NCBI GenBank assembly: GCA_938743325.2
Contig: OW568861.1
Location: 558,001 to 622,000 of the forward strand
DNA length: 64,000 nucleotides
Reading direction: 5' to 3'
Source: Pycnococcus provasolii
Taxonomy: Eukaryota > Chlorophyta > Pseudoscourfieldiophyceae > Pseudoscourfieldiales > Pycnococcaceae
The position numbers and the translations under genes were made by a program. The notes below the pieces were generated by a model that worked only from the letters and a program-made list of their open reading frames with translations, made no database searches and was not told the origin of the DNA. Below, in pieces: positions 1 through 56,500 of the stretch (its first letter is position 1; every line of letters begins with the position of its first letter).

Positions 1-276
1 CGGGGCCCCAATTGAGTTTTGATGATTTTTTTTTTTTTTTTTCTAATCCCCCAAATGCAAAGGCAAAGGGAAGTGCAAAAGGGAAGTGGGGCGGGTTTCG
101 GTCTTTCGGATTCTGTATTTGAGTGGTGGTGGTGGTGGTGGTGGTGGTGTCAAGAATGGACTCGTTCGGTTGTGGAATCACTCGTCGTGACTTCTTGTAT
201 TGATTTTTGGTTATATTTTTGATTTTATGTTATGTTTATCTTTATTTTGTTGCTTGTTGTTTTTTTCTTTCAAGAA

Positions 277-853
277 TCACAAGCGCGCGTTTGCCACAGC
301 CTTCTTGATTACCGTCGGCATGCTGCTCATGAGCGTCTTGCAATCAATGCACGCCTCGAGTGCCGCCTCCGTTGTCATCTCGGGGGGGCAGAAGATTCCT
401 TTTTCGAATCGCAGGACGAGGTAGTTTTCTCCGGCGTCGGTCTGTTCCACGGTGACGTCGACATCAGCGGCGCTCCCAAACTCGTTCGCCGACGGTGCTT
501 TGGTGACTGTTTTTATTTATATGTGTTAGGTTGTTAGTGACTTTTGTTTGTGCGCCGTGGCTGGGTATAGAGGTAGGCTTACTGAAGCTCAGTTTCATGC
601 TCGACTCGCTGATTCGGTCCACCTTGAGCGGCAGCGCTAGTGGCAGGTTCGCGCCGTCCGTCGTCACTCCGCTCGTCCATGCGTACACCCCGTCGATGAC
701 TTTGTTGGCGTCGACGTCAGCGGGTATTTTCGCGGATCCGAGCTGAATGGCCTTAGCCAATACAGTCGTCGCATGTCGAGATCTGCTTTTGTGAGACGCG
801 CGAGCACCGAAGCGAGCAAGAGAGAGTGGTCGTGACGCGCGCGAGGAGAGCAT
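277..853 (-). CDS. Small plastid-type protein of unknown function, two exons
   Basis: Two exons on the minus strand, 853..583 and 506..277, encode 166 residues. The intron (582..507) has a GT donor and AG acceptor and splits one codon, and the joined frame stays open to TGA. I start at the internal ATG at 853 because the basic, Ser/Arg/Ala-rich first 30 residues look like a plastid or mitochondrial targeting peptide. The mature part has the pattern 'LGSAKIPADVD ... GANLPLALPLKVD', which I recall from a plant and algal plastid family of unknown function (possibly DUF7148, from memory). No catalytic motif is visible. It is divergent from the BAP31-like gene at 1127. The gene call is fairly sure; the function is unknown. 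Confidence 0.7.
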
Positions 854-1017
854 CGTGAAGAGTGCTGTGATCAGTACACGACTTGGAACCTGAACGTACT
901 TGTGTGGTCTGGGGAGTGGGGTGGGGCGGCCCACCAAATATCTACTTTTAAGGAGCAACCAGCGAGGGCAAATCTACTCCTATGGGCTATGGCTAATCTC
1001 ACACCAAAAAAGCATTC

Positions 1018-1050
1018 GGGTTAGGGTTAGGGTTAGGGTTAGGGTTAGGG
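1018..1050 (+). repeat. Interstitial TTAGGG array
   Basis: Five uninterrupted TTAGGG units follow a GGG. The array lies 77 bp upstream of the BAP31-like ATG, and the G-rich strand is the sense strand of that gene. It is internal rather than a chromosome end. Confidence 0.95.
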
Positions 1051-1126
1051 CTCGGCGCGTTCCCTTCCCGCGTTCCCTTCTTGCCCTTTGAGCCTCCCTC
1101 CCTTCCTCGGTTAGTCTAGTCTAGGT

Positions 1127-1918
1127 ATGGCGCTGCTCATCACGCTCGTGCTGCTACTAGCGCTCGAGGCGGCCGTCGCCTGCCTCCTCATATGCCCCGT
1201 GCCGTCCGTCCAGAAAATTGGCACGTCCATATGCGGCGTGCTGCGAACACCCTCCGGCGTCGTCGTCTCATACACAATCGGAGCGGTGCTCTTCGCGCTC
1301 TTCGGAATCTCCGCATGGGAACTGCGCAGCTTTGGAAACAAGCTCGACGCCGTGAGATCCGTGCACGGACCGAACGTGCCGCACCCCGTTTCGGAGTCAA
1401 GGATGTGCCTCGCCCAGCTGTCGTGCGTGCTCGCCGGGTGCTGCCTGCTCATCATGGCTCTCGTCAGACAGCTCAGCGAGTGCATCGTGCAGAATGAGAA
1501 AACCAAACTCAGCCTGAACGTGCTCAAAAAGCAGGCTGAGGGCATGCGAGCAGAGTACCTCAGGCAAGTCGACAACGCCGCCACGACGAGCGCAAACACC
1601 ACCGCCGGAGGGAAGGACGACAACGCAGATTCTGAGCTCAAGCCCCTGCGCAAGCAGCACGGTGAGCTTGTCTCGCAGCTTGCAAAGATGAAGCGCATGC
1701 TCGAGGACGAGGCGAAAGCAAAGGCAGCTGCCGAGTCGAGCATGGAAGCTTTAAAGAAGCAGGCGGAGGGACTCGAGCGCGAATACGACCGCGTGTGCGA
1801 CGAAAACAACGCGCTTGAGCGGAAGATGCGCAGCGTTACCGGTGGCGTCGGAGGTTCAGGCAGTGCGGAGAACACGCCCAAGCCGATGTGGGCGCACGGT
1901 GATATGAAAGATGACTAA
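1127..1918 (+). CDS. BAP31-like endoplasmic reticulum membrane protein
   Basis: The 263-residue single-exon protein has three hydrophobic segments near residues 1-22, 45-65 and 95-115. A long charged coiled coil follows, from about residue 125 to 235, interrupted by a Ser/Thr/Ala/Asp linker. This is the layout and length of the BAP31/BAP29 family (Yet1/Yet3 in yeast), ER cargo-receptor and chaperone proteins with three N-terminal membrane helices and a cytosolic coiled coil. The C-terminus ends MKDD, so the classical KKxx retrieval signal is absent. The ATG at 1127 is the first in frame and sits just before the first membrane helix. A TTAGGG array and the pentamer pair TAGTCTAGTCTA lie in its leader. 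Confidence 0.8.
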   Translation: MALLITLVLLLALEAAVACLLICPVPSVQKIGTSICGVLRTPSGVVVSYTIGAVLFALFGISAWELRSFGNKLDAVRSVHGPNVPHPVSESRMCLAQLSCVLAGCCLLIMALVRQLSECIVQNEKTKLSLNVLKKQAEGMRAEYLRQVDNAATTSANTTAGGKDDNADSELKPLRKQHGELVSQLAKMKRMLEDEAKAKAAAESSMEALKKQAEGLEREYDRVCDENNALERKMRSVTGGVGGSGSAENTPKPMWAHGDMKDD

Positions 1919-2030
1919 AAGAACGAAACAGAATGGCGTGGGTGCGTTTGTATGGTCGTGTCATATGTGTTACAATTCTCTCATTTTTTTTTCCTTTACC
2001 GTACGTAGCAACTACATCAAACCAACTCAC

Positions 2031-2315
2031 TCAGTCGAAGTCCATTTTTTTCAGTTGTTCTTCTTGAAGTCTCCGCAGTGCCTCCTGCTTCGATGCGCTG
2101 TCTCTCACCTTGATTCCTCGCACGACGACGTTTTTCTTAATTTTGATGCCCTTCTTTTTCTTTTTGACGACACCACCGCTCGCATCCATCGCCTTGGCCA
2201 TCTTTTCCTTCCTGGCTGCCGCCTTGGCTTTCGCCTTTTCCTCCCTCTCGCGTTCTTGCTTCAAGTCAACTTCTCTCGCCGCCGCGTCACGCACGCGTTT
2301 CGCCTGCTTCGCCAT
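2031..2315 (-). CDS. Short basic, lysine-rich protein, unidentified
   Basis: A 94-residue protein begins MAKQAKRVRDAAAREV. It has a Glu/Lys/Ala helix, a run of five lysines near residue 52 and a tail ending LKKMDFD. The composition suggests a nucleolar or ribosome-associated protein, but I do not recognise the family. It converges on the BAP31-like gene, with about 110 bp between the two stops. The inverted-repeat element at 2427 lies upstream of it. That it is real rests on the open frame, the ATG and the non-random composition. Confidence 0.5.
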   Translation of the reverse strand: MAKQAKRVRDAAAREVDLKQEREREEKAKAKAAARKEKMAKAMDASGGVVKKKKKGIKIKKNVVVRGIKVRDSASKQEALRRLQEEQLKKMDFD

Positions 2316-2426
2316 AACTTACCCAACTATATTTTGCTATGACTGTACTGTATTGTGGCAAATGACGAGCTGGAGTAAAGCTTAAAGAGGGCTGGAGGGA
2401 GAATGGCGGCCGAAACTATGAGTAGT

Positions 2427-3069
2427 ACCAAGGGGTTATTACAATGGGGTAGCGACTCCCGTTGTAGCCCGATGAAAACTGAACTGTCCGGTAGGGGTTT
2501 CAAAATTGAATAAGACCTTGCCAAACCCCAACCTTTAAAAAAAATTTGAACGGAGACTCTCGACCATGGCGTCGTCTGTGCGCGACGATGTCACGCCACA
2601 AGCTGGTACGTACAAACCATGCTAAAGTCCACAAAAGCAATGCTAAGAACCTCTTACCAACACTGTTACCTCAAACACCCCACACTCAAAACATGTGAAA
2701 TTTTGTTGTGGATTGCGAAATTTCTCTTCGCGTACGTAACACTCGGTGGTCTACTACGGGCACTCCAAGTGTGTTAGGAGCGCGCATGCCGCATAGGTGC
2801 GCCGACGCGGCATGGGCGGTGCGAATACGTAGTCCTGCTCCTGCCTGACCGAACGAACTCCACATGGCGCGTTTACAAGCCTCTGCGCGCCGCGCATGCC
2901 TCACGGCGCGTGCCTCGCCGCGCTGCGCGCACTACCATGAGATGGGGTAGAGTCTGGGGGGGGGGAAGGGAGGAACCGTGCGGTCGGTCGGGAAAAAGCA
3001 AAACCCTACCGGACAGTTCAGTTTTCAGGATGCCCCGGAGTCGCTACCCCATTGTAATAACCCCTTGGT
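2427..3069. mobile_element. Non-autonomous DNA element (MITE-like) with ~71-bp terminal inverted repeats
   Basis: The two ends are reverse complements. The first 33 bp (from ACCAAGGGGTTATTACAATG) match exactly, then about 12 bp differ, then another 23 bp match exactly. A 3-bp direct repeat, AGT, flanks the element at 2424..2426 and 3070..3072. The 643-bp body has no long reading frame, so it would have been moved by a transposase in trans. A 3-bp target duplication fits the PIF/Harbinger or CACTA superfamilies, but the TIR sequence does not decide between them. Inside, at 2565, an ATG opens a 14-codon frame ending at a GTACGT splice-donor-like site. This could be a captured exon fragment or chance. 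Confidence 0.75.
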
Positions 3070-3123
3070 AGTACTAAAGGTTACCAAGAACAAACTTTAG
3101 GAAGAAATCGTGCCAGGTTGGGT

Positions 3124-3132
3124 TTCGGGGTT
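3124..3132 (-). promoter_or_regulatory. AACCCCGAA motif upstream of INO80B-like gene
   Basis: TTCGGGGTT on the plus strand, 137 bp before the ATG at 3269. It is one of nine copies of this 9-mer in the window, all in intergenic DNA. Confidence 0.45.
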
Positions 3133-3268
3133 TTATTACGGGGAGCAGGTGCCCCAACCAACCCCCAACCCAGACACCTGCCAAGGGCTTTGGCGGCCGT
3201 CCCGTGTTCGCGACCTGTGTTCGCGCTTCCATTCCCAAACGCTTTCTTCTTGACGTTTGTTGCTCCCG

Positions 3269-3919
3269 ATGCCGCGCACCGTGCGATTCAGCCTTGGGGG
3301 CAAGAAAACTCCTCCTTCCACAGCAGCTACCACAGCGCCAACCACAGCAGGAGCTCGAGCTCGAGGAGACCCTGCCGTCCCTGCGGTGGGGTCGCTCTCC
3401 GATGTGCGCTCCGCGGGAGACTCCGGACTCGCAACGACGGCGGACGACGAGGAGGAGCTTGAGGAGGAGGAGGAGGAACTGGTGGATGACGATGACGAGG
3501 TGCTGGTAGATGACGAAGAAGACGAGGAGGAGGAGGATCCGCTGGCGGGCGATATTGACGACGACGACGACGATAACAACGCGGCGGATGAGCGGAAAAG
3601 TCGAAAGCTGGAGGCGGCGGCGAGGAGGAGAGAGCAGGCAATACAGAAGAAGCGTGAGGCGAACGCGTCCGCCATTGCCAAAATCATGTCAGGGGACAGT
3701 TCCATACGCAGGAAGCGCGAGCTCGCGGAGGCGGAGGCGGAGGAGCGTCGCAAGCGTCGCGTGCTGGACGGCGCGCTCGCGCCTGGGTACGTGCGTTTGC
3801 GTCAGCGCGCGGACGGCACGCGTATGCTTGCGACGGGGTCTGGTGACGGCGGCGGAGGCGCGTTGTGGGCGTACGGTCAGTGCGCTTCGTTCGTTGGGAC
3901 TAAAAAGACGAGTAACTAA
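3269..3919 (+). CDS. INO80 complex subunit B (IES2/PAPA-1) like protein
   Basis: The 216-residue protein begins MPRTVRFSLGGKK. It has a Thr/Ala/Gly-rich N-terminus, a very acidic stretch (about residues 55-100), then a basic Arg/Lys/Glu helix (residues ~105-165) and a terminal module containing YVRLRQRADGTRML. A basic helix followed by a short beta module is the arrangement of the PAPA-1/IES2 region of INO80 chromatin-remodelling complexes, where IES2 stimulates nucleosome sliding. I start at 3269 because the residues just upstream do not resemble the family and the ATG is the better placed. The acidic block is low complexity and weakens the match. Its neighbour downstream is the RAMA-OTU gene, another chromatin/ubiquitin candidate. 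Confidence 0.6.
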   Translation: MPRTVRFSLGGKKTPPSTAATTAPTTAGARARGDPAVPAVGSLSDVRSAGDSGLATTADDEEELEEEEEELVDDDDEVLVDDEEDEEEEDPLAGDIDDDDDDNNAADERKSRKLEAAARRREQAIQKKREANASAIAKIMSGDSSIRRKRELAEAEAEERRKRRVLDGALAPGYVRLRQRADGTRMLATGSGDGGGGALWAYGQCASFVGTKKTSN

Positions 3920-4091
3920 CTACCGACAGGATGTACACTAAAAACATAAAGCACAACCAGTACAGCACAGTACACAGCAACGCCATCCCAAATACCTATA
4001 CACAAAACGCAACCTACCTTAGTCTAGGAAGCCTGAAAACAAAAGGGATCCGTCAAGGCCTGAGCAACCTGCCTGAGCAGCGAATCTGGCT

Positions 4092-4144
4092 AACCCCGAA
4101 TAGGGAACGCGAGTCAAACCCCCTCTTCCCACCCCAACCCCGAA
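4092..4144 (+). promoter_or_regulatory. Two AACCCCGAA motifs upstream of the RAMA-OTU gene
   Basis: Direct copies lie at 4092..4100 and 4136..4144, 139 and 95 bp before the ATG at 4231, in the sense orientation. The 311-bp gap 3920..4230 otherwise holds only a pyrimidine-rich leader. Confidence 0.5.
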
Positions 4145-4230
4145 ATCCGATTCCCCCGCTTCCCTGCTTTATTTTATTTTCAAACCACCTGTCTGTCGTC
4201 TTTTTCTTCTTTTCCGCCTTCCCAACGGCC

Positions 4231-5646
4231 ATGGACGTCTCGGACGACGCGGCGATAGCGCGCATGCTCGCCTTGGAGTACGAAAATACGCACATGGGCA
4301 CAACACACGGGTTCGGGTACGGTCGTGCTGACTTCCTTGACGATGCCGGTGCCCTCGATGATGACTCCTCGGACTCTTCGTATGGAGGCTCGAAACGTCG
4401 CGCAAAACGCAAGGCTGGTTCGAAAACGAAGTCTCGCTCGGCTGGTAATTCTTCTTCCGCAAGAAGGAAGAAGGCTTCAAAGGTCGCGACGAAATCGCAG
4501 GGAGTGCCGCCGTGCTCAGAAGATGCGAACAAGGAAAATAGGGCTGGCCAAGGCCGTTCCGTTGAAGGGGACGACGCAGACTTGACGGAAGACGATGAAA
4601 AGACCATTCAAGAGAAAACGCCGCCGCCGCCGCCGCCCGCGGGGAAAACCCAACCTCAAGGTGGTAATGCCGGTGGCGGTGGACAAAAGAGCAGGGCGAC
4701 AGTCACGCTTGGAATGCTCGTTGATGCCGGTGCACTCACGCCAGGCGTGGATAAGCTCTCCGTGAAGTGCCACGGACACACGCACAAGGCGGAGCTTCTG
4801 CAGGACGGACGCATCCGTTTTCAGGAAATCACGTTCGAGTCGCCGAGCGCGTTCAGCCTTTACTGCAAACGAATGCACAACCCAACACGACGCGCGGACG
4901 ACGGGTGGGGATCGGTCACATACGACGGCGTGACGCTCGGCGACATCAAGAAGAAGGCGCAGGAGGGAGCGGGTGACGTCGCCAACGCGGTAAGGGACGC
5001 AGTTGCTGAGGCGGAGAGGGCTGTGGCGGCGAAAGCAGCAACCAAGCAGCAGAGCAGCAAGCAAAACGCCAACAAAAGGCCGCCGGTGCCCACACAGCCT
5101 GCACAGCCCGTGCAGCCTGCCGTTGACCGTGCACATCTCCGCCGCGCGGCGGCAGTCGTCAGCAACGTCGGTGACTGCGACGAAGACGTGGACATGGCAA
5201 GGGCGCTGCTCGACTCACGGCTAGAGCAGTGCAAGCTTGTGGAAAAGGAGATGGCTTCTGACGGAAACTGCCAATTCAGAGCTCTCGCAGACCAGCTCTA
5301 TTCCAAAGAGAGCGTGCACGCCGAAGTGCGACAAAAAGTTGTTCAGGAGCTTTCTAGCAACCGCGAAAGGTACGAGCCCTTCGTCGACGGCAACTACGAC
5401 GTGTACGTGACGAGAATGCAGATGGATAAAGAGTGGGGAGATGGCGTAACGCTGCAGGCGGCAAGCGATGCATACGGAGTCAACATCAGCGTGATCACGA
5501 GCTACAGCGAGAAATTCTTCATCGAGTTGACACCAGAGGTGCCCAAGATGCCCGAAGAACAAACTCTGCGTCTTTCATTGTTCGTCGACACGCACTACAA
5601 TTCCGTGTACCCCTCGAGCGAACCAGCCGCTGCAGCGGGCGCTTAA
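4231..5646 (+). CDS. RAMA domain - OTU cysteine protease fusion (putative deubiquitinase)
   Basis: The 471-residue protein has three parts. The N-terminus is disordered and basic, with a poly-proline run. Residues about 155-245 match the RAMA domain as in animal MPND: 'TLGMLVDAGALTPG', 'DGRIRFQE', 'ESPSAF', 'CKRMHNP' and 'GWGSVTYDG' occur in order with family spacing. After an Ala/Gln/Pro linker, residues about 330-460 form an OTU protease with D344-G-N-C347 and H455 in HYNSVY, the catalytic Cys and His positions of the family. OTU enzymes cleave ubiquitin chains. RAMA in MPND is reported to recognise N6-methyladenine DNA and is fused there to a JAMM-type domain. The start at 4231 follows a long leader and gives MDVSDDAAIARML. 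Domain calls are firm; the substrate is inferred. Confidence 0.88.
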   Translation: MDVSDDAAIARMLALEYENTHMGTTHGFGYGRADFLDDAGALDDDSSDSSYGGSKRRAKRKAGSKTKSRSAGNSSSARRKKASKVATKSQGVPPCSEDANKENRAGQGRSVEGDDADLTEDDEKTIQEKTPPPPPPAGKTQPQGGNAGGGGQKSRATVTLGMLVDAGALTPGVDKLSVKCHGHTHKAELLQDGRIRFQEITFESPSAFSLYCKRMHNPTRRADDGWGSVTYDGVTLGDIKKKAQEGAGDVANAVRDAVAEAERAVAAKAATKQQSSKQNANKRPPVPTQPAQPVQPAVDRAHLRRAAAVVSNVGDCDEDVDMARALLDSRLEQCKLVEKEMASDGNCQFRALADQLYSKESVHAEVRQKVVQELSSNRERYEPFVDGNYDVYVTRMQMDKEWGDGVTLQAASDAYGVNISVITSYSEKFFIELTPEVPKMPEEQTLRLSLFVDTHYNSVYPSSEPAAAAGA

Positions 5647-5708
5647 ACGCTTTATTTGTTGTGTTGAAACTTACTTCTATCATTACAATCAATTGTTCCG
5701 TTGTCACT

Positions 5709-7151
5709 TCAGTACCGACGAGTTCTATCCCTCGGTGGCCTGTACTCGAGTGGGTGAGTACTAGGAGTCGCCGTAGGATCCTCCTTGTAGAAGCGCAGCG
5801 TCTTGTCCGCAGCGCCAACGATCAGCCTTGTGCCAGTGCCGTCAAACTTGCCACAGTAAATGGCACTCTCGCTTTCGAGGCTGCCAGGCTGCAGCGGCGA
5901 CTTGATGTCCTGAAATCGGTGGCCGCTTCTCCAGTCAAAGAAACAAAGAATGCCCTCCTCGTTTCCAGTGACCATCACATCCTCGTCGTTCAGCGCGCTG
6001 AAGTTCGCGATTCCTGCGGGGCTTCCGGCGCTGCCAACGGCGGTGCCGCAGACGAGCGGCATCGAGCCGTTCGCCGTGAGCCCCATATTCATGAGAAATT
6101 CGCCATGAGGTAACTTGTACTTTTTGACGGCATCCGCAGAGCATGCTGAGAAGCAGAACTCGCGAGGGTGCATCTGAAGCGCTCTCACGCCCTTCTTGTG
6201 GTACGTGAGCGTGGACATCGTCTTACCCGCGGCAAGATCCCACAGCTTGATCTGGCTGTCCTGCGAACCACTTATGATTTGGGGGTCCACCTTCTGTGTC
6301 GCGAGACTAACAACCGTGTTGCTGTGCCCGGAAAGCACATGCACCTGTGCGCGCGTTCTGATGTCCCACACGCGCGTGCAGCTATCGCGTCCGCCGGTGA
6401 AGAGGATTTCGAGGCTTGGGTGCAGTGCGAGGGAGTACACACCGCTCAGGTGGCCGTGATAGCTGCGAATCACCTTGTTGTACTCTAGGTCCCAGCACTT
6501 GACCGACTTGTCAATGCCAGCACTAAATAAGTACGGAGACCGCGGCGACACGGCGAGACCGGTAACCTGCTCGGTGTGCCCGGTGAGCGTCAGCTTCAGC
6601 GTTCCGGAGGCGAGATCCCATAACTTGATGGTGCGGTCCGCGGCACCTGTGCAGAACCACTCGTTGGCTGGGTCGAATGCAATGCTGCGAACCCACCCCA
6701 TGTGCCCACTCACAACGCGGTATAGCGTCCACGGAGCGTGCCACGTGGGTCGTGGATACTGGCTCTGTGCGTTGAGCCTGCGCTGAACCTCGTGCTGCGG
6801 CAATGTCGGAACGTTCGCCAGCGCCAGCGCACCCATATCAGCCCCTGTGGCGGCGGTCGCCTCTGGCACTGCAGCGGCGTGAGCGCCTTTTTCTTTCTGC
6901 ACAGCAAAAGGGGCGTCCGCGCCGCTGGACGCTTTTGCGGGTGCCGGTTGCGCCGCCGACGACGCAGGGACCATGTGGCGCACGAGTTTGTACTCCGAGC
7001 GCAGCTTGTACTCGATTCGCGCGCGCATGGAGAGCGCGTCGGGCGGGGGCATCGCGGCGGCGTCTGCGAAGAGCGCGAACGTGCGCTTGCGTTGCGCGTC
7101 CGCCATCGCGCCGAGCGGAGGAGGAGAGTCGTCAACGTCGGCGGGGGGCAT
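5709..7151 (-). CDS. PRL1: PRL1/PLRG1-type WD40 splicing factor
   Basis: The 480-residue protein has a disordered N-terminal third and a seven-bladed WD40 propeller from about residue 150. Repeats carry GH...WD dipeptides ([40 protein letters not shown]). The lead-in '[23 protein letters not shown]' and the HP/SGG pattern are diagnostic of PRL1/PLRG1, a core Prp19/NineTeen complex protein needed for spliceosome activation and, in plants, for stress and sugar signalling. Length agrees with plant PRL1. The gene converges on RAMA-OTU, with 62 bp between stops. An AACCCCGAA motif in sense orientation lies about 80 bp upstream of its ATG. Confidence 0.92.
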
Positions 7152-11911: not shown

Positions 11912-12025
11912 TTTCTGTTCGGGTTTTTCCAGGTGTTTTTTCCCGCCTCTCCTCGTCATCCTCACCCTCGTGCGAGTCATTTTCCTGCTTCGCGTTCGTC
12001 GACGATAAAGACGAGAATACCATCC

Positions 12026-13864
12026 ATGTGCGACGCCGTCCGTCTCCTGGAAGAGTGGTCCGTGCCTCACGGTAATCACGTAACATCGTCTTTGAATAGC
12101 TCGTTTGAGGTGGTTGAGGACTACATCGACGGACTCCCAGGAGGAGGAGGTGGTGGTGGTGCTCCATCCTCCTCCCAGGGGGGACGGGGGGACTGGGATC
12201 CCGACATCACGTGCGCCGCCTTCTCCCGAAGAGGAACGCTCATCGCACTCGGAACCGCCAAGGGACGAATCCTTATCGCAGACACGGACACGAAGGGAAT
12301 TGCACGCGATATCACAGTCACGCCGAACCAACCAGCGCCCGTCAGGTTCGTCAGCTGGAGCAGATGTGGACGCACCGTTGCGGCTGTCACCGACGACGAC
12401 GTCGCGAGAACATTCGACATCGTGCAGGCGAAGCAGAGCTCGCAGAGAAAACTCCCGTTCCGACCAGACGCGTGCGAGCTGAGACCCAGCAGAAACGCCC
12501 CGCGAGCCGTCGCCGCGAGCGCGGAGGGAAAGGGTGTGCACGTTCTGGAGCTTGAAGACAAAAACAAAGGCTGCGCCTTGCCGAGACTCGAGGATGGCGC
12601 AGCGCCAACGTGCTTTGCTTGGGCGCCAAGAGGACAGTGGCTCATGTGTGGCACCGACAAGGGTACCATCGCGCCGTTCGACGATGGCGCAAAAGTCGGA
12701 CAGTGGAGCGCTGGGGCTGCGTCGCCGTCGGCGCCGACGCCCGCGACTTCGCCCGGGTCGTGCAACTGCGTCGCCATCAGCAGAGACGGCGCGCGCGCCG
12801 CCGCCAGCTTCGAGGATCGAAGTGTGCGCGTATTTTCGCTGAGCGACGATGGCAAGCCGCCAGCGCCCATTGCGGTGCTGCGTGGCACGCTAGATCGCAC
12901 AGGGCTCACTTGGCGCCACGTTGCATTCAGCCACGACGCGCGCCGCGTCGTCGCCGCCGCGGCTTGGCTTCCGCCGACGCCTGCTGGCGCAGCCTTGGCA
13001 GTCGGTGGCACGCTGCACGTGTGGGACGTCGAAAAGAGCGCGATGGACCGTGTGCTTGAGCTGCCGAAGGGGTGTATGACGCTCGGCGTTGCTAGCCACC
13101 CACATCGCGCACTGCTGTGCCACGTGTCTCGTACACCCGCAGAGGTGGCGGGCGAACTCGTGGATCTCGCGCCTGCAGCGGCCACAACGACAAGCGCGCC
13201 TGGGCCTGCACTCGCGGAGGCTGCCGCGGCAAACGGGAGCGGTGACGCGGGTCCAGCCGCTGACGCCGCTTCCGGCGCGCCCGCGGCTGAGCTCGCGAGC
13301 GCACCCGATCAGCTTCCGTCATCGGCAGCGGCGGACGGTGCACCGCGCATTCCGGCGAGCGTTGCGTACCTCTGGGCCCCCATTCATCGCGAGAATTGGT
13401 CGGCGTTCGCACCTGGCTTTCGCGAGCTCGAGAAGAACGAGGAGTACGACGAACGCGAGAGCGAATTCGACGAGTACGACGAAGATGGCCAGGTCCCCAC
13501 GGGCAACTTCGTCGTTCACCCCGGCGGCCGGCGCGCGTCCGTGAGTGCAGGCACGTCCGCCTCTCACGCGAAGCTGGCGGTGTCTCCTCTCTGTGCGCCG
13601 CGCGACACGCTGTCTCGTCGCCTGGGCCGGCTAGCGTACGTTCCCATTGACGGCGCAATCTACGGCGACAGCGACGGCGACGACGACGTGGACGCCCTTC
13701 CCGTGATTCCGTGCGCGATGGATGCTTCGGTACTAGCCGCCGCGGACTTGAAGCGTGATTCTCGGAGGGGCAAGTCTGACGGCAAGCGCGGCGGAGGCGG
13801 CGGAGGAGGCGGAGGAGCAGGAGGCCTCGGTTCTTCACAGTCACGCAAGCGCGCACGATCGTAG
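12026..13864 (+). CDS. RBBP5/SWD1-like WD40 subunit of Set1/COMPASS H3K4 methyltransferase
   Basis: The 612-residue protein has WD40-type repeats over the first ~370 residues (AFSRRGTLIALGTAKGRI, WSRCGRTVAAVTDDD, AISRDGARAAASFEDRSVRVFSL, LHVWDVEKS). Near residue 456 comes the highly conserved hinge 'ENWSAFAPGFRELEKNEEY' followed by ERESEFDEYDED. In RBBP5/SWD1 this segment carries the activation and ASH2L-binding regions that stimulate MLL/Set1 methylation of H3K4. A Gly/Ala linker separates the propeller from the hinge, and the protein ends in a glycine run and SRKRARS, a likely nuclear signal. I chose the ATG at 12026 (MCDAVRLLEEW); the upstream in-frame residues are leader-like. Identification is firm. 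Confidence 0.9.
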   Translation: MCDAVRLLEEWSVPHGNHVTSSLNSSFEVVEDYIDGLPGGGGGGGAPSSSQGGRGDWDPDITCAAFSRRGTLIALGTAKGRILIADTDTKGIARDITVTPNQPAPVRFVSWSRCGRTVAAVTDDDVARTFDIVQAKQSSQRKLPFRPDACELRPSRNAPRAVAASAEGKGVHVLELEDKNKGCALPRLEDGAAPTCFAWAPRGQWLMCGTDKGTIAPFDDGAKVGQWSAGAASPSAPTPATSPGSCNCVAISRDGARAAASFEDRSVRVFSLSDDGKPPAPIAVLRGTLDRTGLTWRHVAFSHDARRVVAAAAWLPPTPAGAALAVGGTLHVWDVEKSAMDRVLELPKGCMTLGVASHPHRALLCHVSRTPAEVAGELVDLAPAAATTTSAPGPALAEAAAANGSGDAGPAADAASGAPAAELASAPDQLPSSAAADGAPRIPASVAYLWAPIHRENWSAFAPGFRELEKNEEYDERESEFDEYDEDGQVPTGNFVVHPGGRRASVSAGTSASHAKLAVSPLCAPRDTLSRRLGRLAYVPIDGAIYGDSDGDDDVDALPVIPCAMDASVLAAADLKRDSRRGKSDGKRGGGGGGGGGAGGLGSSQSRKRARS

Positions 13865-47595: not shown

Positions 47596-50500
47596 ATGGC
47601 GCCAGGGTCCCTTGGCCCCTTGGCGGCGGCGGCCCCCAGGAGAGGGCGAGCGGCCGGGCGGGGAACCAGTCCGCAGCGCTCGCGAAGCGGGGGCAGCGTG
47701 GGGCGTGGTGGGCGTGGCGTGGTGCTACCTCTCAAGGTGGCGAGAGATGCGAATGGGGGGTCGTCAGCGCACAACGAGGATAGGCACGCAAGCAAGCAGA
47801 GGGAGGCGGATGAACGCACAAGCGGGTATGCCGACGCGCAACTTCTGGTATCCACCGCAGAAGAACACGACGAGGATGCCATCTGGGCCGCCGCGGCTGC
47901 CGCAGCCGCCGCAGAAGAGAGCGAGATTGCGGGCGGTGAAGACTTGCAGGCCACCCGGCAAAGGGAGACGGAAGAGCGCGCCAGGACCTACACAGAGTCA
48001 AAGGGGCAGGACTTCTGGCTACCTGAAGACAACGTTGCGGCAGACAACGACAAGAAGGACCTGGATCTTGATGAGCAACTGAAGAAGTTAGAGGCGCTGC
48101 AGCAAAAGCTAGAGCAAGAGCTATTGAACAACGAGCAAATGGCGGTTCAACTCGGCGAGCTAAGCAAAGATGAGCGTGACCTAGAGTTGATGAATGAACT
48201 CGATGAACTCGAGGGGAAGGCGGAGCACGAGGAGGAGCCGGAGCCAGAGGCAGCGGCACCGCCTGAGCCGGAGCCGCAGGAGCCAGAGCAGGAACATGTC
48301 GTTCGCGACGCATTTGCAGCTGACGCGATACCAGATACCCGCGTTGATGAAGAGGCGAAAGAAAATGCGGAGGAAGAAACGGAGGGAGAGCTGCACGCCG
48401 ATCGGCGTGAAGACGCAAAGGCTCGTATGGAGGCGTTCACCGAAGCGGAAGTGAAACAGCTGGCTATCCCAGCAGCAGCCTATATCATCGGGCTTGGATC
48501 GGCAGGCGTGAATCTCGCTAATATGCTCCGAGAGAACCAAAGTCTGGTGAGCAGCACAATGCACAACACCAGTACTCGAGATTTCGGCGACGAAGGCGAG
48601 GGGAAGGATCGCACAATGCTCGTTCGCAGTGAGTCCACGGCGCTGGTGCCTACAGAGCGCAGGGCATTGCAAGATGAGCTCGCCGCGGAGACGCTCGCCA
48701 TCATAACAGAAGAGTCAAAACCCACGAAAGATGGGGCACTGGTGATGACTGGCGCACCACGACTTGCCGGCAGGCTTGCGAACGCATATGTACAGTGCCT
48801 GGAGGTAGCACTCGAAGATTGTCGTGTGCTGGCAAGCCGCGTCGAGAGCCTCGAGGAGGAGCTTGAGGGGGCGGGCAAAGCCGCGGCTAGTGCCGAGGGA
48901 ACTCTGCGCGAGCGCGAGGAGGAGATGGATTTCTACAGAAGGGAGGCGATCTCGCTTCGAGTTGAATTTGACACACAGCAAAAATTTCTTGCATCGGCGC
49001 AGAAAAATCTCGAGAAGGCTCAAAGGTACCAGAATGGACTTGAGCAGCAGGCTGAGAGTGCAGCTGCGGAAGTGGCGGCACTAATAGATCAGCTTCGCAC
49101 GATAGAGAATCAAACTCACGACATGACGCTTTTGCGGGAAGAGCTAGCAGAGCTCAATGCGAGTGCCGTGGAATCGGAGGGAAAGCTGACGCAAGCAGAG
49201 GAAGTGATCGACAAGCTTACAAAACAGGATGAACTTAACGCAGTCGAGCTCGAACGCCTCAAGGAGGCCGAGGCTAAGGCGTCGACGACGGCAGCGGAGG
49301 CGCAGAGTGAGGCGGCGGATGCGGTGCGTCGTGCCGAAGAAGCGGAGGCGCGAGTCGAGAGTCTGACACAAGAACTGGAGGAGGCGGAGTCGAATGCGAC
49401 GGAGCTCGAACGCCTCAAGGAGGCCGAGGCTGACGTTACTAGGGCGCAGAGCGAGGCGGCGGATGCGGTGCGTCGCGCCGAAGAAGCGGAGGCGCGAGTC
49501 CAGAGTCTGACACAAGAACTGGAGGAGGCGGAGTCGAATGCGACGGAGCTCGAACGCCTCAAGGAGGCCGAGGCTGACGTTACTAGGGCGCAGAGCGAGT
49601 TGGCGTTTGCGGTGCGTCGCGCCGAAGAAGCGGAGGCGCGAGTCGAGAGTCTGACACAAGAACTGGAGGAGACGGAGTCGAATGCGACGGAGCTCGAACG
49701 TCTCAAGGAGGCCGAGGCTAAGGCGTCGACGACGGCAGCGGAGGCGCAGAGCGAGGCGGCGGATGTGGTGCGTCGTGCCGAAGAAGCGGAGGCGCGAGTC
49801 CAGAGTCTGACACAAGAACTGGAGGAGGCGGAGTCGAATGCGACGGAGCTCGAACGCCTCAAGGAGGCCGAGGCGAATGCGTCGACGACGGCAGCGGAGG
49901 CGCAGAGCGAGGCGGCGGATGCGGTGCGTCGTGCCGAAGAAGCGGAGGCGCGAGTCCAGAGTCTGACACAAGAACTGGAGGAGGCGGAGTCGAATGCGAC
50001 GGAGCTCGAACGCCTCAAGGAGGCCGAGGCTAATGCGTCGACGACGGCAGCGGAGGCGCAGAGCGAGGCGGCGGATGCGGTGCGTCGTGCCGAAGAAGCG
50101 GAGGCGCGAGTCCAGAGTCTGACACAAGAACTGGAGGAGGCGGAGTCGAATGCGACGGAGCTCGAACGCCTCAAGGAGGCCGAGGCGAATGCGTCGACGA
50201 CGGCAGCGGAGGCGCAGAGCGAGGCGGCGGATGCGGTGCGTCGTGCCGAAGAAGCGGAGGCGCGAGTCCAGAGTCTGACACAAGAACTGGAGGAGGCGGA
50301 GTCGAATGCGACGGAGCTCGAACGCCTCAAGGAGGCCGAGGCTAAGGCGTCGACGACGGCAGCGGAGGCGCAGAGCGAGGCGGCGGATGCGGTGCGTCGT
50401 GCCGAAGAAGCGGAGGCGCGAGTCCAGAGTCTGACACAAGAACTGGAGGAGGCGGAGTCGAATGCGACGGAGCTCGAACGCCTCAAGGAGGCCGAGGCGA

Positions 50501-53500
50501 ATGCGTCGACGACGGCAGCGGAGGCGCAGAGTGAGGCGGCGGATGCGGTGCGTCGTGCCGAAGAAGCGGAGGCGCGAGTCCAGAGTCTGACACAAGAACT
50601 GGAGGAGGCGGAGTCGAATGCGACGGAGCTCGAACGTCTCAAGGAGGCCGAGGCTGACGTTACTAGGGCGCAGAGCGAGGCGGCGGATGCTGTGCGTCGT
50701 GCGAAGCAGGCTGAGGCTCAGGCAGCGAGGGTTCTCGAGCAACTCGACGAGGCGGAATCGCACATGACGGAGCTGGCACGCCTCAAGAAGGCCGAGGTCG
50801 ACAATGCGGAGGCCCAGAGCAAGGCGACGGATGCTATGCGTCGTGCAGAGGAAGCAGAGAAGCGAGTCCAGAGTCTCACTGAGCAACTGCAGGACGCGGA
50901 GTCGACACGAATAGACGTGGAAGAGTTACGCACAGATCTGGCGCGCCTCGAAGAAGCTAAGTCTCTCGCATTGTCTGCAGCGGAGGAGGCGCAGAGTCAG
51001 GCCACGGAATCGCAGACACGTGCGCAGGAGGCAGAGGCGCGAGCTTGGAAGTTTTCAAAGCAGTTGGAGGAGGCAGAGTCGAACGCGACTGAGCTTGCGC
51101 GTCTTCAGAAGCTCGAGGCTGACGCGATCAAGGCGAAGAGCGAAGCTCACATGGCGGATGTACGAGTCGAGAATCTTCATAAGGTCCTCGCCCAGCAGCT
51201 TGAGGAGGCGGAATCAAGTGGAATTAAGATAGCAAATCTCGAAAAGGCAAAGTCAGACTCATACAGGCAAGCGGCAAAGGCGCAGAGCTTGGCGTCAGAG
51301 GCGTTACGTCGCGCCGAGGCTTCTGAGGCGATTGCTGCAAGCCTCGCACAGCAGCTTGAGGAACTGGCGCAGCTTCGAAACGAGGTGATGCATCTTGAGG
51401 TCGCTAAAGCAGAAGCAGTGCACGCAATGGAGGAAGCACGAATCAATGGCGAGGCGCAAGTTCAGAGCCTTTCTGAGCAACTCGAGGAGGCGAATTCAAA
51501 CATGACAGAGCTCGAACGCCTTAGGGAAGATCAGACCGATGTTACGAGGGCGCAGAGCGAGGCGGCAGAGGCGCTACGTCGTGCGGCGGATGCGGAGGCG
51601 CGAACCACAAGCCTAAGTCAGGAAATGCAGGAGATGCAAGACAATATAGAGAGAGAGCGGCACCAGGAGATTGAAGAAATCGGGCAAGAGATGGCTCGTC
51701 TCCAGGAAGCTACAACTGACGCGCAGCGCGACGCTGCAATAGCTCGTCACCGGGCAGAGATGTTAGAGGTTGAAGCTCAACTGAGTCAAGAAAGGCAGGA
51801 GCAAATCACAAATCTCCGCGATGAGATGGCACGGCGCGCAGAGGCGGAGGCTGAGACGTCGAAACAGCATGTCGAGGAGATGGAGGAGCTTCGTGCTGCA
51901 ATAATGCGTCTCGAGAATGCAGAGGCTATCGCATCCAAAGAACAGCGTGAGGCCATTGAGCGACTACGTATTGAAATTGCACGTCTGGAGGAAGAGGAGG
52001 ACCAGTTACGCGCTGAAATGGTTATGGCTGCCGATGCAGCGACGGAAGCACAGAATGACGCGACCGCATCACGCAGCCGCGCGGAAAAGGCGGAGGCGTG
52101 CGCATCGGAACTCACACAGAAGCTGCTTGCTTCACGAGATCGCCTCGATGAGCTTGAGAAGACGCAAGCTGAAATGACTGGGCGCGCGGAGGCTGAAGCT
52201 CACACGTCTAGTCAACGTCTCAAGGAGATCGAGAAACTGCGTGCCGAGATGGCTGAGGTCGAGCAGCAGAAGGCGGACGCATCTGCGGCGGCCGAAGCCG
52301 CGCAAAACGATGCGACGGCATCTCTGAGTCGCGCGGAGGAGGCCGAGGCGCGTGCCGCCAGTCTGACCGAGCAGCTTGACGAGATGACAGAGCGCACAGA
52401 ATCGCAGGAAACAATATCGAATTCGCGACTGGAGGAACTGCAGCAGGTGCGTGCTGAAATGCTCAAGCGCGAAATGGCCGAATCGGACGCGAAGGCAGAG
52501 CTGCAAGCACAGATGGAGCAGCTGCGAGCTGAGATCACACGGCTTGAAGAGGCGGACGCGGAGGCGAAAAAGCGACAGCGCGACGAAATGGAGCAGCTAC
52601 GCGCCGAGATGGCTGAGGTCGAGCAGCAGAAGGCGGACGCATCTGCGGCGGCCGAAGCCGCGCAAAACGATGCGACGGCATCTCTGAGTCGCGCGGAGGA
52701 GGCCGAGGCGCGTGCCGCCAGTCTGGCCGAGCAGCTTGACAAGATGGCACGACGCGCAAAGTCGGTGGCTGAAGCATCGCGAGAGCGTCTCGAGGAGCTC
52801 AAACAGGTGCGCACGGAAATGACGGAGCTCGAAGAGGCGAGCGCGGACGCGAAGGCAGAGCTGTACGCCGAGATGGAGCAGCTGCGTGCTGAGATGGGAG
52901 AGATCGAGCAACAGAAGGCAAATGCTACTGATGCGGCGACGGAAGCACAGAATGACGCGACCGCGTCACGCAGCCGCGCGGAAGAGGCTGAGGCGTGCTC
53001 CTCAAACCTCACGCAGCAGTTGCTTGCATCACGAGATCGCCTCGATCAGCTCGAGAAGATGTTTGACGAGATGACAGAACGTGTCATGACAGAGGAACAA
53101 ACTTCGACTTCGCGACTGGAGGAACTGCAGCAGGTGCGTGCTGAAATGCTCAAGCGCGAAATGGCCGAATCGGACGCGAAGGCAGAGCTGCACGCGGAGA
53201 TGGAGCAGCTGCGAGCTGAGATCACACGGCTTGAAGAGGCGGACGCGGAGGCAAAGAAGCGACAGCGCGACGAAATGGAGCAGCTACGCGCCGAGATGGC
53301 TGAGGTCGAGCAGCAGAAGGCGGACGCATCTGCGGCGGCCGAAGCCGCGCAAAACGATGCGACGGCGTCTCTGAGTCGCGCGGAGGAGGCCGAGGCGCGT
53401 GCCGCCAGTCTGACCGAGCAGCTTGACGAGATGACAGAGCGCGCGGACACGGAGGCGCAAACGTCTCGACAGCGTCTCGAGGAGCTCGAGCGGCGTCGCG

Positions 53501-56500
53501 CCGAGATGGCACAGCTCGAAGAGGCGAACGCGGACGCGAAGGCAGAGCTGCACGCGGAGATGCAGCAGCTTCGCGCTGAGATCGCGCGGCTTGAAGAGGC
53601 GGACGCGGAGGCACAGAAGCGACAGCGCGACGAAATGGAGCAGCTACGCGCCGAGATGGCTGAGGTCGAGCAGCAGAAGGCGGACGCATCTGCGGCGGCC
53701 GAAGCCGCGCAAAACGATGCGACGGCATCTCTGAGTCGCGCGGAGGAGGCCGAGGCGCGTGCCGCCAGTCTGACCGAGCAGCTTGACGAGATGGCACGAC
53801 GCGCAAAGTCGGTGGCTGAGGCATCGCGAGAGCGTCTCGAGGAGCTCAAACAGGTGCGCACGGAAATGACGGAGCTCGAAGAGGCGAGCGCGGACGCGAA
53901 GGCAGAGCTGTACGCCGAGATGGAGCAGCTGCGTGCTGAGATGGCTGAGATCGAGCAACAGAAGGCTGATGCTACTGATGCGGCGACGGGAGCACAGAAT
54001 GACGCGACCGCATCACGCAGCCGCGCGGAAGAGGCTGAGGCGTGCTCCTCCAACCTCACGCAGCAGTTGCTTGCTTCCAAAGAGCGCCTCGATGAGCTTG
54101 AGAAGACGCAAGCTGAAATGACAGGGCGCGCGGAGGCTGAAGCTCACACGTCTAGTCAACGTCTCAAGGAGATCGAGAAACTGCGTGCCGAGATGGCTGA
54201 GGTCGAGCAGCAGAAGGCGGACGCATCTGCGGCGGCCGAAGCCGCGCAAAACGATGCGACGGCATCTCTGAGTCGCGCGGAGGAGGCCGAGGCGCGTGCC
54301 GCCAGTCTGACCGAGCAGCTTGACGAGATGACAGAGCGCGCGGACACGGAGGCGCAAACGTCTCGACAGCGTCTCGAGGAGCTCGAGCGGCGTCGCGCCG
54401 AGATGGCACAGCTCGAAGAGGCGAACGCGGACGCGAAGGCAGAGCTGCACGCGGAGATGCAGCAGCTTCGCGCTGAGATCGCGCGGCTTGAAGAGGCGGA
54501 CGCGGAGGCAAAGAAGCGACAGCGCGACGAAATGGAGCAGCTACGCGCCGAGATGGCTGAGGTCGAGCAGCAAAAGGCGGATGCTACTCATGCGGCGACG
54601 GAAGCACAGAATGACGCGACTGCGTCACGCACCCGTGCAGAAGACGCTGAGACTCGCGCTTCAAATCTCACGCAGCAGCTTCTTGCTTCACGAGATCGCC
54701 TCGATGAGCTTGAGAAGACGCAAGCTGAAATGACTGGGCGCGCGGAGGCTGAAGCTCACACGTCTAGTCAACGTCTCAAGGAGATCGAGAAACTGCGTGC
54801 CGAGATGGCTGAGGTCGAGCAGCAGAAGGCGGACGCATCTGCGGCGGCCGAAGCCGCGCAAAACGATGCGACGGCATCTCTGAGTCGCGCGGAGGAGGCC
54901 GAGGCGCGTGCCGCCAGTCTGACCGAGCAGCTTGACGAGATGACAGAGCGCGCGGACACGGAGGCGCAAACGTCTCGACAGCGTCTCGAGGAGCTCGAGC
55001 GGCGTCGCGCCGAGATGGCACAGCTCGAAGAGGCGAACGCGGAGGCAAAGAAGCGACAGCGCGACGAAATGGAGCAGCTACGCGCCGAGATGGCTGAGGT
55101 TGAGAAACAGAAGGCGGACGCATCTGCGGCGGCCGAAGACGCGCAAAATGATGCGACGGCATCTCTGAGTCGCGCGGAGGAGGCTGAGACTCGCGCTTCA
55201 AACCTCACGCAGCAGTTGCTTGCAACGCGAGATCGACTCGATGACGTCGAGAAGATGTTTGACGATGTGACAGTGCACATGGAAAATGAGTCACAGATAT
55301 CGAGTGCGCGACTGGAGGAACTGCAGCAGGTTCGTGCTGAAATGCTCAAGCGCGAAATGGCCGAATCGGACGCGAAGGCAGAGCTGCACGCGGAGATGGA
55401 GCAGCTGCGAGCTGAGATCACACGGCTTGAAGAGGCGGACGCGGAGGCAAAAAAGCGACAGCGCGACGAAATGGAGCAGCTACGCGCCGAGATGGCTGAG
55501 GTCGAGCAGCAGAAGGCGGACGCATCTGCGGCGGCCGAGGCGGCGCAAAACGATGCGACGGCATCTCTGAGTCGCGCGGAGGAGGCCGAGGCGCGTGCCG
55601 CCAGTCTGACCGAGCAGCTTGACGAGATGACAGAGCGCGCGGACACGGAGGCGCAAACGTCTCGACAGCGTCTCGAGGAGCTCGAGCGGCGTCGCGCCGA
55701 GATGGCACAGCTCGAAGAGGCGAACGCGGACGCGAAGGCAGAGCTGCAAGCACAGATGGAGCAGCTTCGCGCTGAGATCACACGACTCGAAGAGGCGGAC
55801 GCGGAGGCGAAAAAGCGACAGCGCGACGAAATGGAGCAGCTACGCGCCGAGATGGCTGAGGTCGAGCAGCAGAAGGCGGACGCATCTGCGGCGGCCGAGG
55901 CGGCGCAAAACGATGCGACGGCATCTCTGAGTCGCGCGGAGGAGGCCGAGGCGCGTGCCGCCAGTCTGACCGAGCAGCTTGACGAGATGGCACGACGCGC
56001 AAAGTCGGTGGCTGAGGCATCGCGAGAGCGTCTCGAGGAGCTCAAACAGGTGCGTACTGAGATGGCTGAGATCGAGCAACAGAAGGCTGATGCTACTGAT
56101 GCGGCGACGGAAGCACAGAATGACGCGACCGCGTCACGCAGCCGCGCGGAAAAGGCGGAGGCGTGCGCATCGGAACTCACACAGAAGCTGCTTGCATCAC
56201 GAGATCGCCTCGATGAGCTCGAGAAGACGCAAGCTGAAATGACAGGGCGCGCGGAGGCTGAAGCTCACACGTCTAGTCAACGTCTCAAGGAGATCGAGAA
56301 ACTGCGTGCCGAGATGGCTGAGGTCGAGCAGCAGAAGGCGGACGCATCTGCGGCGGCCGAAGCCGCGCAAAACGATGCGACGGCATCTCTGAGTCGCGCG
56401 GAGGAGGCCGAGGCGCGTGCCGCCAGTCTGACCGAGCAGCTTGACGAGATGACAGAGCGCGCGGACACGGAGGCGCAAACGTCTCGACAGCGTCTCGAGG

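Follow-up and report, generated by a model that had tools for sequence, protein, structure and literature searches.

A single open frame in the genome of Pycnococcus provasolii joins a RAMA domain to a protease domain of the OTU family. The gene lies in a stretch of 64,000 nucleotides, referred to here as the window, and its product is best explained, by a slim preponderance, as a nuclear, chromatin-tethered deubiquitinase: RAMA would sit on double-stranded DNA and OTU would deubiquitinate nearby chromatin proteins, likely in the region that follows transcription starts. The gene and its parts are the following:

4231..5646, + strand: RAMA-OTU gene, 471 amino acids in one open frame (ATG to TAA, Pfam, match to NCBI protein P0001)
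4246..4290, + strand: N-terminal helix, residues 6-20 (full-length model, low confidence, block means 44-46)
4384..4500, + strand: basic, NLS-like stretch, residues 52-90, with 15 K/R and 0 D/E (residue count)
4666..4956, + strand: RAMA domain, residues 146-242 (Pfam PF18755, E 1.2e-20; 7ydt; Foldseek 7ydw_B)
4840..4908, + strand: stretch S204-W226, with S204, S206 and W226 corresponding to S113, S115 and W135 of MPND (alignment; PMC9963953)
5191..5622, + strand: OTU protease domain, residues 321-464, with D344, C347, H455 and N457 (Pfam, Foldseek, residues)

The frame from 4231 to 5646 runs uninterrupted through 471 codons. The ORF as called mechanically opens at an earlier ATG (3931, 571 amino acids; the preceding stop lies at 3913), and 4231 is the start used in P0001, a protein of Pseudoscourfieldia marina which also counts 471 residues and whose sole difference from the Pycnococcus protein is residue 106. 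Moreover, RAMA and OTU each score above their curated Pfam cut-offs within this one frame, and NCBI lists the two together as one protein in the second organism. An artefact, or a read-through across two genes, is scarcely credible as the origin of the fusion: it has been found in one lineage only, but the frame is unbroken, the P. marina protein is equally long with one difference, and the assembly has a QV of 58.2 (PMC11130579). Two genes or a read-through were discarded on account of the unbroken frame and of the P. marina protein. The 18S sequences of Pycnococcus and P. marina are 100% identical (PMC11130579); P0001 thus establishes that the fusion is real, but not that it is widely distributed.

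In agreement with the initial annotation, a RAMA-type domain precedes an OTU domain with D344, C347 and H455: both domains are matched in Pfam and the residues stand at these places. The RAMA profile, on whose significance that annotation had staked its reading, matches residues 146-242 with 73.8 bits (cut-off 35.2, E 1.2e-20), and in a sequence search the region matches the crystallised RAMA of mouse MPND, 7ydt, with E 2.5e-13. Five models of the domain were built from the window segment together with three MPND-type sequences; the best reached a mean pLDDT of 86.9 and the other four were weaker (65.2 to 46.0). With Foldseek, the best model matched the MPND-DNA complex 7ydw_B (TM 0.81, E 4.6e-9), and at E <= 0.001 four matches were obtained, namely two chains of 7ydw, apo MPND 7ydt and CcrM 6pbd. 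In the full-length model (overall mean 55.8), confidence is high for residues 321-460 (block means 84-95); the rest of the chain is poorly modelled, the RAMA part included (block means 34-63 over residues 161-240).

In MPND, the DNA backbone is bonded by S113, S115 and W135, whose replacement by alanine nearly abolished binding (PMC9963953). The equivalents S204, S206 and W226 are invariant in all five aligned RAMAs, four algal and that of mouse MPND. The position of R63, which in MPND is seen over the DNA major groove (PMC9963953), is taken in the algal RAMA by Ala156, with Arg155 as its neighbour. Between the RAMA of the window and its paralogues, dN is 0.19-0.22 and dS 0.39-0.46 (NG86, rough).

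The animal protein MPND is the natural term of comparison, as the initial annotation had recognised from the sequence alone; the match to 7ydt, the fold match to 7ydw and the kept DNA-contact residues all bear this out. In both proteins RAMA lies upstream of a domain of the deubiquitinase class; the two RAMAs are 36-40% identical, share the same predicted fold and have the three reported DNA-contact residues in common. They differ in that R63 is not kept in the alga and, above all, in that the catalytic domain of MPND is a zinc JAMM/MPN domain, whereas that of the alga belongs to the OTU family of cysteine proteases. No JAB match was found in the RAMA-OTU protein at E <= 0.1 (Pfam). An orthologue of MPND was thus rejected, RAMA being present and the JAMM/MPN domain absent. 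RAMA was found at four places in the 32.3-Mb genome (six-frame, exon-wise search with introns disregarded), none of which coincides with any of the eight JAB/MPN loci found, and the claim of a protease class other than that of MPND holds on both counts.

The OTU profile of Pfam matches residues 343-433 (50.6 bits, cut-off 23.3, E 3.4e-13). D344, C347 and H455 are present, with a DGNC motif, and N457 stands two residues after H455. The closest folds of this part in Foldseek are DUBA/OTUD5 (3tmp, E 1.3e-10), OTUD3 and OTUD1, so that the Foldseek comparison proposed for the two halves of the protein led to MPND for the one and to OTU deubiquitinases for the other. A domain that is catalytically dead and merely binds ubiquitin is very improbable: close to the catalytic His the fused copy departs from most of the aligned relatives, with LSLF in place of LSFW or similar, but it retains D344, C347 and H455 as well as the HYN motif, and dN/dS is about 0.2 (dN 0.22, dS 1.09 against the paralogue L017; NG86, rough at this distance).

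This paralogue, on C3, is an OTU protein lacking RAMA. It is 62% identical to the fused domain over 141 residues and, the window itself apart, is the closest to it among the OTU loci found in the genome. A tree of 28 OTU rows, 11 of whose 24 inner branches remain open, places the two as sisters (99/98). This relation suggests that the fused OTU probably arose by duplication in the Pycnococcus/Pseudoscourfieldia lineage and acquired RAMA afterwards. More widely, 23 OTU homologues among the matches listed share 31-49% identity with it over the stretch that aligns, some of them being named OTU12-like. The plant OTU12-like deubiquitinases resemble the algal domain, as does the unfused L017 of the same genome; a difference from the fusion is that a precomputed RAMA match is present in none of these 23.

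The Arabidopsis proteins OTU11 and OTU12 work at the plasma membrane as lipid-activated K63 deubiquitinases and have been seen in the nucleus too (PMC9653390), so kinship cannot give the substrate of the algal enzyme. It is conceivable that the OTU domain acts off chromatin, on K63 or K48 chains of membrane or soluble substrates, RAMA being then a protein-binding or regulatory module. OTU12-like proteins are among the named plant relatives and the Arabidopsis enzymes are membrane-activated, but the basic stretch and the kept DNA-contact residues speak for chromatin, the ancestral job could have stayed with L017, and such a role is considered improbable.

A nuclear location of the RAMA-OTU protein is suggested by its basic stretch (residues 52-90), just as tethering to DNA is suggested by the conserved contact residues and protease activity by the catalytic ones. 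The predicted helix at residues 6-20 resembles a ubiquitin-interacting motif of the MIU/UIM type. The basic stretch is preceded by an acidic one (residues 36-51, 6 D/E and 0 K/R), both lying upstream of RAMA; in MPND, acidic regions help histone binding (PMC9963953).

The three other RAMA proteins of the genome are relevant to the place where the enzyme may act:

C10:894500-904499, frame 1-6288, + strand: L005, a frame of 2096 residues with PHD, extended PHD, RAMA and SET (Pfam)
C4:281500-291499, frame 1128-6557, + strand: L006, a frame of 1810 residues that combines RAMA with a PTM/DIR17 Tudor domain (Pfam)
C44: L007, RAMA alone (Pfam)

The SET domain of L005 is closest to Set1 (126.4 bits), followed by MLL (93.5) and SETD2 (64.1). 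In L006, AP2-like repeated segments were noticed by eye only; its C-terminus, taken by eye for a SET domain, was rejected as such after no SET match appeared in the Pfam and PDB searches. The RAMAs of L005, L006 and L007 are 83-89% identical mutually and 65-74% identical to that of the window, a likeness which suggests that the domain spread by duplication in this lineage. Their mutual dN/dS of 0.62-0.79 (NG86, rough) suggests weak constraint or youth.

Furthermore, the genome encodes a methyltransferase of the AMT1/MTA1 type, L008 on C7, which has a DPPW motif and scores best against structures of the MTA1 complex (237.8 bits). Against chain B of 7yi8, a structure of that complex (PMC9852454), it scores 235.6 bits, compared with 117.7 for METTL3, 56.8 for METTL14 and 24.2 for the chain named MTA9, and is hence closer to MTA1 than to METTL3/14. 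Chain B, labelled 'MT-a70 family protein' in the entry, would be MTA1 itself. Short MT-A70 frames were also seen on C10 (L009) and C30 (L010), 88% identical and with neighbouring frames similar by eye on the two different chromosomes, and a fragment on C3 (L012); these three possibly belong to a mobile or virus-derived element with an adenine methyltransferase.

According to a survey of 2025, robust 6mA occurs only in AMT1-bearing species, after transcription starts, and overlaps H3K4me3 in the unicellular eukaryotes profiled by ChIP-seq (PMC12695648). In the prasinophytes Micromonas and Ostreococcus, too, 6mA lies after transcription starts (PMC12695648). With a writer of this type encoded here and 6mA in these two genera, the 6mA background that the initial annotation assumed for green algae is plausible. 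The survey leaves open the order of cause between 6mA and H3K4me3 and calls the identification of readers key; the word RAMA is absent from its main text (PMC12695648).

Whether RAMA could be such a reader is a matter on which the literature is conflicting. Sensing of 6mA by MPND was reportedly described by Kweon et al. 2019, as cited by later papers. According to PMC11037411 this preference could not be confirmed, and MPND was found to bind double-stranded DNA independently of sequence, through the backbone, with no effect of 6mA (PMC9963953). Any 6mA selectivity of the algal RAMA is putative, and the 'methyl-DNA-guided' deubiquitinase of the initial annotation is, in that wording, unsupported, since the binding of MPND to DNA is unaffected by 6mA. 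The main rival to the favoured explanation follows from these results: RAMA would be a general anchor to double-stranded DNA or nucleosomes that does not sense methylation, so that the enzyme is simply held on chromatin and any link with 6mA is coincidental. Both reports on MPND fit such an anchor, as does the fact that the residues kept in the algal RAMA are the backbone-contacting ones, but the sensing attributed to Kweon et al. and the occurrence in one genome of an AMT1/MTA1-type writer and of RAMA on a Set1/MLL-like protein fit a role as reader, and the rival is judged a substantial but lesser likelihood.

Returning to the tethered deubiquitinase, RAMA would hold the protein on double-stranded DNA by backbone contacts of S204, S206 and W226, while the OTU domain (Cys347/His455, probably with Asn457) would strip ubiquitin off chromatin proteins in the vicinity, for instance histones H2A/H2B or chain-bearing factors. 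The likeliest place would be the region past transcription starts, where 6mA gathers in AMT1 organisms, beside the RAMA-bearing Set1/MLL-like SET protein, and perhaps where 6mA and H3K4me3 meet. Ubiquitin on H2B promotes H3K4 methylation by COMPASS, so that the enzyme could oppose or recycle this mark beside the RAMA-SET enzyme. The substrate of the enzyme, the site at which it works and a preference for 6mA, if any, are inferences.

A broader and rather unlikely proposal is that in Pycnococcus/Pseudoscourfieldia RAMA, spread by duplication onto several chromatin proteins (the OTU deubiquitinase, the Set1/MLL-like protein as an H3K4 methyltransferase, and the Tudor protein of the PTM/DIR17 type), would form a 6mA-reading layer. 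At promoters methylated by AMT1 this layer would write H3K4 methylation and edit the ubiquitin on histones, and its members would be the readers still lacking between 6mA and H3K4me3 in algae. A related idea is the 'DNA-read-histone-write' proposal for SETDB1 variants of bdelloid rotifers (PMC8885841), which, like L005, combine a candidate reader of methylated DNA with a histone methyltransferase; the rotifer case differs in its MBD, 4mC and silencing, as against RAMA, putative 6mA and a SET domain of the H3K4 type in the alga. The genome offers physical links for such a proposal, with RAMA on the deubiquitinase and, separately, on the SET protein, and with the writer encoded, which makes the RAMA-OTU protein a testable candidate for how algae read adenine methylation. 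Should these RAMAs turn out to prefer 6mApT, the direction leading from 6mA to the histone mark could be put to the test; otherwise they provide an independent case for doubting MPND as a 6mA sensor. Either way, deubiquitinases of two unrelated protease classes have been joined to RAMA.

The joining as such is already known: fusions of RAMA with deubiquitinating domains are described as frequent in eukaryotes, MYSM1 being named (PMC9963953). These fusions share with the algal protein the general idea of RAMA plus deubiquitinase; they differ in that OTU is not mentioned in the sections of PMC9963953 covered here, and the MYB-MPN protein of the alga itself (L032) has no RAMA match in Pfam. A common N-terminus of L032 and the RAMA-OTU protein, suspected by eye, was dismissed (best 19.2 bits, E 0.38). 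The OTU version, a cysteine protease, is a different architecture, found nowhere else in searches of limited reach. A literature search returned no paper describing a RAMA-OTU fusion. RAMA domains are said to have been surveyed by Iyer et al. 2016, where such fusions may already appear.

Among proteins of about 259-824 amino acids, a search with the whole protein gave at least 26 matches, from 7991 candidates scored, and a search with the RAMA region gave four, MPND not among them; in each case both domains occur only in P0001 (precomputed Pfam). Given this size range and the failure of the RAMA-region search to recover MPND, a fusion that is more distant or longer could have escaped these searches. 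A profile built from the four algal RAMAs and that of mouse MPND returned 603 matches, and among the 120 listed OTU is found only on P0001. Four of these 120 (P0001, P0002, P0003 and P0027) belong to this lineage, P0003 coming from a very similar source; the remaining 116 all have a RAMA match, and the named ones are animal MPN-domain or hypothetical proteins. With tblastn, no relatives were found in the viral contigs (52 pattern matches) or the prokaryote contigs (57) searched; these negatives say little, because the patterns were narrow and RAMA exists in bacteria (Caulobacter). The expectation of the same domain order in related algae was thus borne out in part: it is present in Pseudoscourfieldia marina and, within the limited reach of the searches, nowhere else.

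Finally, the initial annotation had pointed to a COMPASS subunit and an INO80B-like gene nearby, and frames of both kinds were recovered among the neighbours:

3257..3919, + strand: PAPA-1 (INO80B-like) frame (Pfam PAPA-1, E 8.3e-7, 30.2 bits, cut-off 25)
5709..7151, - strand: PLRG1/PRP46 splicing factor (475.9 bits to PLRG1)
11933..13864, + strand: RBBP5/Swd1-like COMPASS subunit (E 5.8e-26 to RBBP5)

PAPA-1 corresponds to INO80B. The PLRG1/PRP46 gene lies tail to tail with the RAMA-OTU gene, with 63 bp between their ends, and the RBBP5/Swd1-like frame opens 6.3 kb past the RAMA-OTU stop. Elsewhere in the window, positions 48001-56000 show a GC skew of 0.15-0.23 and an AT skew of 0.33-0.37, above most of the window, and an open frame of 3315 amino acids runs on the forward strand from 47596 to 57543 under this strong skew.
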